Assembly: GCA_014654455.1 (NCBI GenBank)
Contig: JACWCY010000002.1
Coordinates: 62,001 to 126,000, forward strand
From: Pelagibacterales bacterium SAG-MED01
GTDB taxonomy: Bacteria > Pseudomonadota > Alphaproteobacteria > Pelagibacterales > Pelagibacteraceae
Length of the DNA stretch: 64,000 nt
Direction of reading: 5' to 3'
The notes under the pieces are model-generated. The model was not told the DNA's origin. It worked only from the letters and a program-made list of their open reading frames with translations, and searched no databases. Numbering within the stretch: the first letter of the stretch is position 1; each line of letters starts with the position of its first letter. Of this stretch, positions 9,693 to 15,251 are shown piece after piece. The position numbers and the translations under genes were made by a program.

Positions 9693-9784
9693 AATTAGAT
9701 TACATAGGTTGTTTGAAATATTTTTCAACTAGAGTATTTTACGCATGTACATAACTCAACTAAGTTAGTAATTAATTGAATATT

Positions 9785-10132
9785 ATGAAAGTTTATTTCA
9801 ATAATTCATGTAAAATCTGTAAGGCAGAAATCGACTTATATAAAAAAGAAAAAATTCAAGAGATTGATTGGGTAGATATAACAAATAATGATTTAGCTGA
9901 AAAAGAAACTTTTAGAAATAGTAAAGAACTACTGCGACGACTTCATGTAAAAGAAGGTGAAAAAATTATTCAAGGGGCTGAAGCGTTTCTTATATTATGG
10001 AAAAAAATGCCGAGGTACAGATTTCTATATAACTTTTTTAAATTGCCAATCATTTTTAATTTATTTTCTTTTGGATATGAAATAGTTGCCTTTTTCCTAT
10101 ATTTAAAAAATAAGAAACAGTTAAAAAGTTAA
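9785..10132 (+). CDS. DCC-family (DUF393) thiol-disulfide oxidoreductase-like protein
   Basis: This 115-residue protein starts MKVYFNNSCKICKAEIDLYKK. The C-x-x-C (residues 9 and 12) replaces the usual D-C-C-x-x-C opening of the DCC family, so the first Cys is Ser here. The later GAEAFLILWKKMPRYRFLY block is typical of the family. A thioredoxin-like redox role is predicted for these proteins, but substrates are unknown. ATG 9785 is preferred to a TTG at 9776. The C-terminus is a hydrophobic stretch ending in Lys, possibly membrane-associated. It converges with the next gene through a shared TTAA. Confidence 0.8.
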   Translation: MKVYFNNSCKICKAEIDLYKKEKIQEIDWVDITNNDLAEKETFRNSKELLRRLHVKEGEKIIQGAEAFLILWKKMPRYRFLYNFFKLPIIFNLFSFGYEIVAFFLYLKNKKQLKS

Positions 10133-10422
10133 TCAAAAAAAAACAGCAAAAATTTACTTAATAATGACATTGACGATATAAACATAATAAGAACTATAGA
10201 ATACATAAATAGAATAATCTTATTTTTTTTTCTTCTAAGTCTTACAAAATCTTTATCATCTAAATCAGAAATATCTCTTTCACCTAATACTGGATAATCG
10301 TAAGTAAATCTCCAAGTACTGTCTCCCAATCTAGAATCTAAATTATTATAATATGTTATCCAAGCAAGTACGTATCTCAAAATTAAATAAAGAATAATAA
10401 AAAATACTGTACCTAAAATCAT
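10129..10422 (-). CDS. Small two-helix membrane protein, unknown
   Basis: This 97-residue protein has an N-terminal hydrophobic segment (about residues 2-22), a polar middle with YDYPVLGERDISDLDDKDFVRLRRKK, and a second hydrophobic segment (about 70-95). I do not recognise the family. It lies 29 bases downstream of the Lys-rich coiled-coil gene on the same strand, so the two are probably co-transcribed and may act together. It overlaps the DCC-family gene by 4 nt at the shared stop. The acidic middle could contact the very basic partner, which is speculation. Confidence 0.6.
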   Translation of the reverse strand: MILGTVFFIILYLILRYVLAWITYYNNLDSRLGDSTWRFTYDYPVLGERDISDLDDKDFVRLRRKKNKIILFMYSIVLIMFISSMSLLSKFLLFFFD

Positions 10423-10451
10423 CTCTAATAATACATAATATCAACTAATAT

Positions 10452-11648
10452 TTAATTATTATTTTTAGCTCTTTTTCTAGCAATAAGTTGGGTTAAAGAA
10501 TCTACCATTGTGTCAGAAGCTTTAAAAATATCGATGCTTCTAAATTCATGTGAAATATTTTTTTCTGGATTTGTTTTGTCCTCAATAACTATACCTTCAT
10601 CTGGTAAATTATTCTTAATATATATTAACAGTAGCCACTCTTCATCTTCAGACTCATCCCATTTAATGAAGATTTCACCTGTCTCAAATCTTCGATCGAT
10701 GCATCTGAAAATAGACATATTTCTTGTAACGTGTCTTTTATTAAGTTGAAACACCAAACTACTTGCACTTCTATAAAAACTTTCTAATGCAAACTCTATT
10801 TTTTGTCTTGCTAAAGTATATTCTTTTTCTTTTGATAGTAATGTTTCTCTATCCTCATCACCTTGAAGTTTTACCCCTAAAGCTTCTACTCTTTCTTTTA
10901 TTTTTTGATCTCTAATTATTCGATATTTTTCTTTAAGCTTATCAATTCTTTCTTGAAGCCCTGCATAGTCTTCTCTTTTTTCTCTTAAAGAAATTTTTTC
11001 AAGTCTTTCTAGTTCTTTAACCTCTCTAATTCTAAATTTCTCAATTTGTTTATCTAATCTTAATTGTTTTAAAAATTGTTTTTGTTTTTCAGCTTGTTCT
11101 ATTCTTAAAAGCGCCTGCTCTTTTCTCAAAAATAATTTTATGTCTTTTGTTCTTTGTTTTTCTAATCTAGCCTCTTCTTTTAAAGCTTGTTCTTTTAATT
11201 TTAATCTTAAGATTTCTTCATCTTTTTTTTGTTTTTCTATGGCAATTTTTGTTTTTCTTTCATTTTCTATTTTTTCTACTTTTAATCTTATTTTTTCATC
11301 GTGTTTTAAAATTTTATAATCTGAGATTGTTTCAGAAATTTTATCAAAAAAACGTTGAAAATATTTCTCTAAGTTGAAATAAATTTTAAAATTAAATTGT
11401 GGTTTTAAAGATAGCTGTAATTTAACTAGTTTTAGGACTAAGCTATCATTTTGAACTTTTTTAACTTTGAAATGTAAAAATTTTTTTTTTTTAATATTTG
11501 ATAATTTTTTTTTTATTCTTTTAGATTTTTTTTTTATAACTTTTCTACTTTTTTTTGAATTTTTTTTAATTTGTTTTGAAATTTTTAATTTTGTTATTTT
11601 TTTCTTAAATTTTTTATTTTTTTTAAATTTTTTTTGTTTTTTTTTCAT
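10452..11648 (-). CDS. Lysine-rich coiled-coil protein, unknown
   Basis: This 398-residue protein has three parts. Residues 1-65 are almost half Lys with Phe, Ile and Ser (a histone-H1-like basic tail). Residues ~105-290 form a long charged heptad-rich coiled coil (many E-K-Q-L-R repeats). Residues ~290-398 look globular, with NMSIFRCIDRRFETGEIFIKWDES and EEWLLLIYIKNNLPDEGIVIEDK. No signal peptide or enzymatic motif is seen. The DNA of the tail is a near-continuous T-rich run on the plus strand (about 11460-11650). I do not recognise the family; DNA, RNA or anionic-surface binding is inferred from charge only. The small membrane protein gene follows. Confidence 0.7.
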   Translation of the reverse strand: MKKKQKKFKKNKKFKKKITKLKISKQIKKNSKKSRKVIKKKSKRIKKKLSNIKKKKFLHFKVKKVQNDSLVLKLVKLQLSLKPQFNFKIYFNLEKYFQRFFDKISETISDYKILKHDEKIRLKVEKIENERKTKIAIEKQKKDEEILRLKLKEQALKEEARLEKQRTKDIKLFLRKEQALLRIEQAEKQKQFLKQLRLDKQIEKFRIREVKELERLEKISLREKREDYAGLQERIDKLKEKYRIIRDQKIKERVEALGVKLQGDEDRETLLSKEKEYTLARQKIEFALESFYRSASSLVFQLNKRHVTRNMSIFRCIDRRFETGEIFIKWDESEDEEWLLLIYIKNNLPDEGIVIEDKTNPEKNISHEFRSIDIFKASDTMVDSLTQLIARKRAKNNN

Positions 11649-13800: not shown

Positions 13801-14751
13801 ATGAAAATATTAGCTGTTCAAAATAGAATGGGTATAGGAGATACTGTAATTTTTTTGCCCTTTATAAAGGCTGTGTCTGAAAAATTTAATACACCTATAA
13901 GTTTACTTGTTAAAGAAAGTTCGAAAGCAGATCAATTTCTAAATCAAACTAATTATATCGACAAAATTCTTCTTTTAGAAAAAAATAACAAATATGGTAG
14001 TTTATTACAAAATTTCAATTTAATTAAAAATATTAAAAAACATAATTTTGATAAAATCATAATTTTTAACTCATCATTAAGATTCAATTTAATTGCAAGA
14101 TTTTCTGGAATACCTAATGTTTATCAATATTCATTATTTCGAAAAAATAAACAACATATCACTGATACTCCAAGAGAATTTTTAAAAAATAAATTTGATA
14201 TAAAAGTCAAAGATGATCCTGAAGTTCAAATTGGAGACAAGTTGATTTCCCAATCAATAAAAAAATTTGAAATTAATAAAAACGAAATTAACATACTTTT
14301 GGGTATAGGAGGATCAGGTCCTACCAAAAGAATACCAGCCAATACATTTTTGAGTGTAATTGAAAAACTTTTAAAAGTTAAAAAATGTAGATTTTTTCTT
14401 GCAACTGGTAAAGATCATGAAGAACAAATAATATTAAATGAAATACTACAATCAAAATTTAAAAATGTTTGCACACCTTTGGATGGTTTATCTATAAGTG
14501 AGTTTTTACCAATTATAAAAAATTGTAATATTTCTATTTGTAATGACTCTAGTTTCAGTCATTTATCTGCAGCTTTAGGTATTAAAACTATAACTCTAAT
14601 GGCAGACACTCCTTTAGTTTATGGAAACTATAGTTCTAAAATGTTTCCAATTATTCCTGACGGCGTAGAAACTGTTACTCACAACACTTTAGGGAAGGAA
14701 AAAATTAATCCCCAAAAGATTTTTGATAAAGTTTTTGAAATTATTAATTAA
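13801..14751 (+). CDS. Glycosyltransferase family 9 (heptosyltransferase-like)
   Basis: This 316-residue protein begins MKILAVQNRMGIGDTVIFLPFIKAV, the GT9 N-terminal Rossmann pattern with G-I-G-D. It has LLGIGGSGPTKRIPANTF in the middle, and ICNDSSFSHLSAALGIKTITLMADTP, the nucleotide-sugar binding block of ADP-heptose:LPS heptosyltransferases. It probably adds a sugar to the LPS core or another surface glycan at the cytoplasmic face. The exact donor is unknown. It stands alone on the plus strand and shares its stop codon region (TTAA at 14748) with the convergent J-domain gene. Confidence 0.88.
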   Translation: MKILAVQNRMGIGDTVIFLPFIKAVSEKFNTPISLLVKESSKADQFLNQTNYIDKILLLEKNNKYGSLLQNFNLIKNIKKHNFDKIIIFNSSLRFNLIARFSGIPNVYQYSLFRKNKQHITDTPREFLKNKFDIKVKDDPEVQIGDKLISQSIKKFEINKNEINILLGIGGSGPTKRIPANTFLSVIEKLLKVKKCRFFLATGKDHEEQIILNEILQSKFKNVCTPLDGLSISEFLPIIKNCNISICNDSSFSHLSAALGIKTITLMADTPLVYGNYSSKMFPIIPDGVETVTHNTLGKEKINPQKIFDKVFEIIN

Positions 14752-15251
14752 GTAATGTCATTTAAAACTATATCTTTAGCTTCATTAACTATAGATGATA
14801 GTCGGGAAGTTTCTGGGGAAACATCAGGGTGAATTTTTTTTTGGATTTTTATATAAGCTTTATTTACATCATTTTTAGTAATTTTTTTATTAATATCCAA
14901 ATTTAAAATCTTATAAGCTTCAGAAACAGATATAGATGATAAATTATTTGAATTTGATTGATTAAATGAAAATCTTCCTGATCTTCTTAATGTTTGAAGT
15001 AATCTAAAAAGAGATATTAATTGAAAGATAGACAAACCTTTTAACTTCAATAAAGCAAGACTAGCTAACGTAAGAGGTAAAGTTAATAAAAATCTACCTC
15101 CTATAGCAAATAAAATTGCTAAAATGATTAATCCAATAATAATTAAAACTCTAAGACTTTTTGATATCTTTTTAGATGAAATATTACTAATAAATCTCAA
15201 TAGAAAATAAAAAATAGTCAATATAACTACTGTATAAATTATTATATTCAT
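14748..15251 (-). CDS. Membrane-anchored J-domain co-chaperone
   Basis: This 167-residue protein has two hydrophobic regions (residues ~1-20 and ~35-68), then a C-terminal J domain (SVSEAYKILNL... to ...SIVNEAKDIVL) with the essential HPD at residues 141-143. The arrangement resembles TIM14/DjlC-like J proteins that recruit DnaK at the inner membrane. No Gly/Phe or zinc-finger region is present, so it is not DnaJ itself. It is divergent from oligopeptidase B with only 16 bases between the start codons. Client unknown. Confidence 0.88.
   Translation of the reverse strand: MNIIIYTVVILTIFYFLLRFISNISSKKISKSLRVLIIIGLIILAILFAIGGRFLLTLPLTLASLALLKLKGLSIFQLISLFRLLQTLRRSGRFSFNQSNSNNLSSISVSEAYKILNLDINKKITKNDVNKAYIKIQKKIHPDVSPETSRLSSIVNEAKDIVLNDIT

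Follow-up and report, generated by a model that had tools for sequence, protein, structure and literature searches.

The window that we analysed, a 64,000-nucleotide stretch of Pelagibacterales bacterium SAG-MED01, carries at positions 10452 to 11648 on the minus strand, stop codon included, an open reading frame for a protein of 398 residues, for which we found homologues and signs of purifying selection. The host assembly is 1.17 Mb in size and 95% complete. Downstream of this gene, on the same strand and separated from it by 29 nucleotides, lies an open reading frame for a 97-residue membrane protein (10129 to 10422) with two hydrophobic stretches and a loop between them. A sequence-only reading of this DNA had described both frames, and both are real and lie on the minus strand at the coordinates that it gave. 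Upstream, again at a distance of 29 nucleotides, is a gene for a cfa-like methyltransferase (PF02353; 11678 to 12865), beyond which are genes for a DapA-like aldolase (PF00701; 12867 to 13751) and for a small membrane protein with a DnaJ-like end (14748 to 15251; 27 bits against a cut-off of 27.8). All three are on the minus strand, and the latter two belong to a block that recurs among the relatives. Promoter-like sites did not stand out (29 against 27.2 expected), and terminator-like sites numbered 2 against 0.7 expected, both of them inside the DapA-like gene. The window also contains two adjacent PmbA/TldD-family metallopeptidase genes (PF19289; 6964 to 9728, minus strand), adjoined by a gene for a DCC1-like thiol-disulfide oxidoreductase (9776 to 10132, plus strand).

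Searches of Pfam, NCBIfam, PHROGs and PDB sequences with the 398-residue protein returned nothing above chance, in agreement with the sequence-only reading, which recognised no motif in its globular end, and we found no paper about it in the open-access literature. A genus-level profile (A1) matched in 223 of the 297 genomes of the order, and a broadened profile (A3) matched in 114 of the 118 family genomes sampled, among them that of the window, and in all 8 genera. Among the genomes that A3 missed, one (G131) has the C-terminal domain. In a second (G091), the fetched stretch is shorter than the usual flank and ends with cfa, where the 398-residue gene would be expected; in a third (G292) the contig ends 162 bases beyond the aldolase gene, likewise where the gene would be expected. 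In the fourth (G101) the block is absent, the sole match being to a distant paralogue of the aldolase. Matches in three outlying genera (g5, g6 and g7) are weaker, with E values of 1e-26 to 3e-37. Because they share the C-terminal domain, and because the profiles align with an hhalign probability of 99.8% (E 1e-30 over 229 columns), these are, judged by sequence, true relatives.

Named relatives that carry the protein, among the best 80 of 562, are labelled Pelagibacteraceae, Pelagibacterales or Candidatus Pelagibacter, all of them names within SAR11. None of 11 sister-family genomes matches at E values up to 5, and the A1 profile, run against 385 genomes across the class, matches in 3, namely the window's own and two congeners. 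A profile of the C-terminal domain (A6) matches in 12 of 337 genomes at E values up to 0.1 per genome. Four of these are in the window's family, and the other 8 matches are weak (E 0.005 to 0.09, with 4 of the 8 crossing stop codons) and no more numerous than chance allows at that cut-off, so that the protein was not found above chance in approximately 330 other alphaproteobacteria. Prolyl oligopeptidase, a recurrent neighbour in the family, is present in 2 of 5 sister-family genomes, and the two sister-family loci around it hold neither the 398-residue gene nor the block. Four further viral scans revealed no relative of the protein. The sole "viral" relative is at L215:4611-5342, an IMG/VR contig end where a phage-like open reading frame switches in frame to sequence resembling the form of the gene found in genus g8, and this is probably a chimeric contig. 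By these comparisons, the 398-residue protein is a member of an undescribed family that is restricted to the SAR11 family Pelagibacteraceae.

The first 85 residues of the protein (11394 to 11648, minus strand) form a polycationic tail in which lysine and arginine account for 46% of residues (lysine for 44%) and aspartate and glutamate for 1%, giving a net charge of +38. The most basic 70-residue stretch of the tail, at +35, ranks first among the 63 open reading frames of at least 100 residues in the window, the runner-up reaching +19. The view that such a tail is functionless low-complexity drift of an AT-rich genome draws on the composition of its DNA, which is 63% A and uses AAA for 36 of 37 lysine codons; indeed, random codons drawn at this A-rich composition give a net charge of 20 ± 4 with a maximum of 35. 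At the window's strand-symmetric composition, however, random codons give 4.5 ± 3.5 with a maximum of 14, and acidic residues are nearly absent from the tail in 21 of 21 diverse members representing 8 genera, which makes drift highly improbable as an explanation. Across these 21 members the tail carries a net charge of +27 to +44 with at most 5% acidic residues. It is approximately 55 to 130 residues long, with lengths that are lower bounds because several of the 21 rows are profile-match ranges rather than whole open reading frames, and consists of 45 to 63% lysine and arginine. Its identity to the window protein averages only 31%, indicating that the charge is maintained while the sequence drifts. 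These observations confirm the histone-like basic N-terminal tail of the sequence-only reading, with a charge in the window protein that is far above chance. Lysine-rich, nearly acid-free tails are known from histone H1-like and other nucleoid-associated bacterial proteins (HC1, AlgP and HupB tails), and a long tail of this type is present in 21 of 21 members. The 398-residue protein differs from those proteins in that its tail is followed by a long predicted helix and then by a conserved alpha/beta head. No sequence relation was detected; the only hits were to histone H2B tails, obtained with the profile of the outlying genera at E 0.33 and 0.56.

A model of the full-length protein (mean pLDDT 70, pTM 0.35) places one continuous helix at residues 93-256, followed by a helix at 267-302, five strands and a helix at 371-395; it and the other structure models were built from alignments of close relatives only and are of moderate confidence. 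The predicted rod (10881 to 11372, minus strand; block-mean pLDDT 62 to 93) spans approximately 164 residues, or approximately 25 nm at 1.5 Å per residue. AlphaFold is prone to drawing charged sequences as long helices. A charged coiled coil of approximately 185 residues had been proposed for this region. In the genus profile, hydrophobic power at a period of 3.5 never exceeds 3.2 in 13 stretches of 28 residues, and the best period within the range of 2.2 to 6 falls at 3.4 to 3.6 in only 2 of the 13. Exceptions occur at residues 221-248 of the window protein, where one stretch looks heptad-like, and in the outlying-genera profile, where two overlapping stretches (207-248) show 3.5-residue periodicity (power 4.1 and 4.4). 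Since heptads are not sustained in the middle outside residues 207-248 or so, a coiled coil is not established and we rejected the canonical form of it, retaining from the proposal a long charged helical middle that is kept across the family. The label of a single alpha-helix (SAH) domain, which calls for one long uninterrupted helix such as that predicted at 93-256, did not survive a sequence test either: the SAH-type excess of i/i+3 and i/i+4 ion pairs between glutamate and lysine or arginine is absent, with z of 0.4 in the window protein and -1.3 to 2.2 in 7 members. The length of the rod differs between genera, the first acidic stretch lying 223 to 340 residues before the C-terminus, and the rod therefore is no fixed ruler. 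Since it also has invariant residues (E217 and R234), it may itself bind something. A long predicted helix with conserved residues and a heptad-like stretch would suit a self-assembling, cytoskeleton-like structural protein whose rods pack laterally, but the net positive charge of the rod and its lack, outside that stretch, of sustained coiled-coil periodicity make this quite improbable.

The rod leads into a conserved C-terminal domain (residues 267-398; 10455 to 10850, minus strand) for which an order of alpha helix, five strands and alpha helix is predicted. The last 185 residues, modelled on their own (mean pLDDT 64, pTM 0.43), take a form that agrees in outline with the full-length model. 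Conservation is concentrated here: 28 of the 38 columns after residue 100 that are conserved in at least 18 of 21 members fall in the last 140 residues, and thirteen polar residues of this head (R293, S297, Q301, N303, K304, R305, D318, E322, E325, E356, K358, D379 and D383) are each found in at least 19 of the 21. The globular end without a recognised motif that had been noted earlier is thus a conserved domain kept across the family, and it matches nothing in Pfam (11 members searched) or in PDB sequences. Median dN/dS values, calculated for the best 80 of 562 relatives' loci, are 0.043 for residues 151-250 (80 of 80 pairs usable), 0.014 for residues 251-271 (69 of 80) and 0.026 for residues 272-395 (74 of 80), ratios that should be taken as rough, the synonymous sites being close to saturated (median pS 0.54 to 0.69). 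These values indicate that residues 151-395, comprising part of the rod and the head, are under strong purifying selection.

Fold comparisons gave a best E value of 0.08 against the PDB using Foldseek. Against viral models, Foldseek found none at E 0.001, the best values being 0.017 and 0.034 for two unnamed proteins (probability 0.96 and 0.99, TM-scores 0.31 to 0.52). With VIA, Mediator subunits scored best (Z 7.2), and actin-capping protein and frataxins reached 5 to 7, all below the level that the tool calls informative; by its own note, a Z below 8 may reflect a common arrangement. Frataxin/CyaY has the same order of secondary structure as that predicted for the head (Z 5.5 to 6.4, 96 to 106 residues aligned, rmsd 3.7 to 5.0 Å, on a model of mean pLDDT 64), but a profile comparison with 9 alphaproteobacterial CyaY sequences yielded an hhalign probability of 0.5% (E 0.13 over 13 columns), which is no match at the level of sequence. 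A search for frataxin itself (PF01491) gave no match in the window's genome and none in 43 of a further 57. We also considered a PD-(D/E)xK nuclease because E356-x-K358 is conserved, and dropped it because five consecutive strands with no helix between them do not suit the core of that fold. As the head holds many invariant polar residues, it may itself be a working site. A stronger form of this idea takes the head to be an enzyme or a regulator of translation or RNA that the tail and rod serve only to place on ribosomes. The thirteen conserved polar residues agree with such a role, but the identified neighbours include no ribosomal or RNA gene and the protein has no relation in Pfam, NCBIfam or PDB sequences, and we consider it unlikely.

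The sequence-only reading had proposed that the 398-residue protein and its 97-residue neighbour form a pair linking the nucleoid, ribosomes or envelope to the membrane, with an acidic middle in the smaller protein. An acidic patch is indeed present locally (residues 42-58, 7 acidic and 2 basic), but the loop as a whole (residues 23-68) is balanced, with 9 acidic and 10 basic residues. Invariant positions among 25 aligned members of the 97-residue family include Y24, N26, D29, R31, W37, D42, Y43, G47, D50, D56, F59, R63 and R64. The family has no Pfam match above cut-off. There is a weak match to DUF485 (PF04341) that extends into the second hydrophobic segment, seen in 17 of the 25 members at E values up to 1 (best 0.0019), but the window protein scores 12.7 bits over 29 residues against a cut-off of 28, and we did not accept membership. 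A profile of the family matches in 2 of 10 genera, while the 398-residue profile matches in 8 of 8. The matching genomes number 81, of which 71 are of the window's genus and 10 of g8. Within the window's genus both genes are common and mostly no more than 6 kb apart: the 97-residue gene is adjacent in 39 of the 71 genomes (with a broken frame in one of these, G130), at 2 to 6 kb in 22, at more than 100 kb in 3 and on a different contig in 7. In g8 all 10 genomes carry it on a different contig, and a BLAST comparison with the window's open reading frames found it in none of 14 fetched loci of other genera. Its other neighbours include genes for malic enzyme/phosphotransacetylase (phosphate acetyltransferase), enoyl-ACP reductase and isocitrate lyase, and TerB/DnaJ genes. 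Since the gene varies in place within the genus and lies apart in g8, the arrangement is a frequent local order within one genus and not a unit kept across the family. The two are neighbours and probably not fixed partners. A functional pair, for which the 29-nucleotide spacing in the window and the adjacency in congeners would speak, is very doubtful given that the genes are apart in 10 of 71 congeners and in all g8 genomes and that the smaller one keeps varied company.

Other genes are steadier neighbours of the 398-residue gene than the 97-residue gene is, namely cfa, the aldolase, the DnaJ-like protein and prolyl oligopeptidase. As in the window, cfa is immediately upstream with the DapA-like gene before it in 6 of 6 fetched loci of g8, g9, g10 and g286. 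In g6 the DapA-like gene is directly upstream of the 398-residue gene (2 of 2 loci). In g5 and g7 the upstream gene is DsbA-like in all 4 loci that extend to that side, an identity that was tested with Pfam in one locus and extended to the others by their similar sequence starts; two more g7 loci end there. Glycosyltransferase 9 also recurs nearby in the fetched loci, along with the DnaJ-like membrane protein and prolyl oligopeptidase, which tend to occur side by side. SAR11_1144, a cyclopropane-fatty-acyl-phospholipid synthase that might correspond to the window's cfa, appears as rarely syntenic in a published study (PMC2217521).

The order of tail, rod and head suggests that the protein is a cytoplasmic tether or spacer of Pelagibacteraceae with a nucleic-acid-binding tail, a helical spacer and a docking head, a reading that we favour tentatively and with less than even confidence. 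It rests on the measured charge and conservation of the tail, on a predicted shape and on binding partners that we infer. The tail would bind nucleic acid, in the nucleoid or on ribosomes, electrostatically; the helix would hold tail and head at a distance; and the head, which has many of the invariant or nearly invariant polar residues, would dock on a specific partner, a role for which the 97-residue membrane protein would not be required. Consistent with this are a tail charge that is extreme within the window, near-universal occurrence in the family, purifying selection on rod and head, and the single-helix model. Against it is the fact that the A-rich DNA of the tail would by itself yield a basic peptide, with a random mean of +20.

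The target of the tail is nearly undecided between nucleic acid and a membrane surface. We place nucleic acid first because the tail is long, nearly purely positive in charge and kept where cfa is not a neighbour. The membrane is a close second because of a strongly amphipathic stretch at the tail-rod junction, in the first turns of the helix (residues 93-110), which fits a membrane surface or a protein contact equally well and thus raises the membrane reading and lowers the nucleic-acid one. As a membrane-surface tether, the protein would lie with tail and amphipathic stretch on the anionic inner leaflet while the rod holds the head in the cytoplasm, with cfa as a lipid-related neighbour. This is possible though doubtful. 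Of the 381 windows along the window protein, none exceeds the junction stretch in hydrophobic moment, and in 13 of 21 members the best window at the junction is among the top 10, although choosing the best of approximately 55 windows per member favours high ranks; the position of cfa in the window and in the six loci described above points the same way. Against it, the best junction window ranks only 70 and 75 in the two g6 members, g5, g6 and g7 keep the tail though cfa is not their neighbour, and a segment so charged would fit nucleic acid too.

Whichever surface the tail prefers, the architecture is of a known kind, in an undescribed family. TolA/TonB-like spacers consist of an anchor, a long charged helix and a small alpha/beta end domain, and the predicted shape of the 398-residue protein follows the same order, differing in that a polycationic tail takes the place of the transmembrane anchor and in having no Pfam match. 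More speculatively, and at rather long odds, the protein might be a SAR11-specific spacer in which the tail and the helix of approximately 25 nm link the nucleoid, ribosomes or membrane surface to a fixed site via a new alpha/beta docking domain, perhaps replacing an organiser lost in streamlined cells. SAR11 bacteria, whose genomes are small and streamlined, rank among the most abundant cells on Earth. Because it is nearly universal among the family's sampled genomes, under strong purifying selection and unmatched in Pfam, NCBIfam and PHROGs, the 398-residue protein makes a good candidate for a core component specific to this lineage, and if the tether reading is true, it would provide a handle on how these tiny cells organise their nucleoid, ribosomes or envelope.
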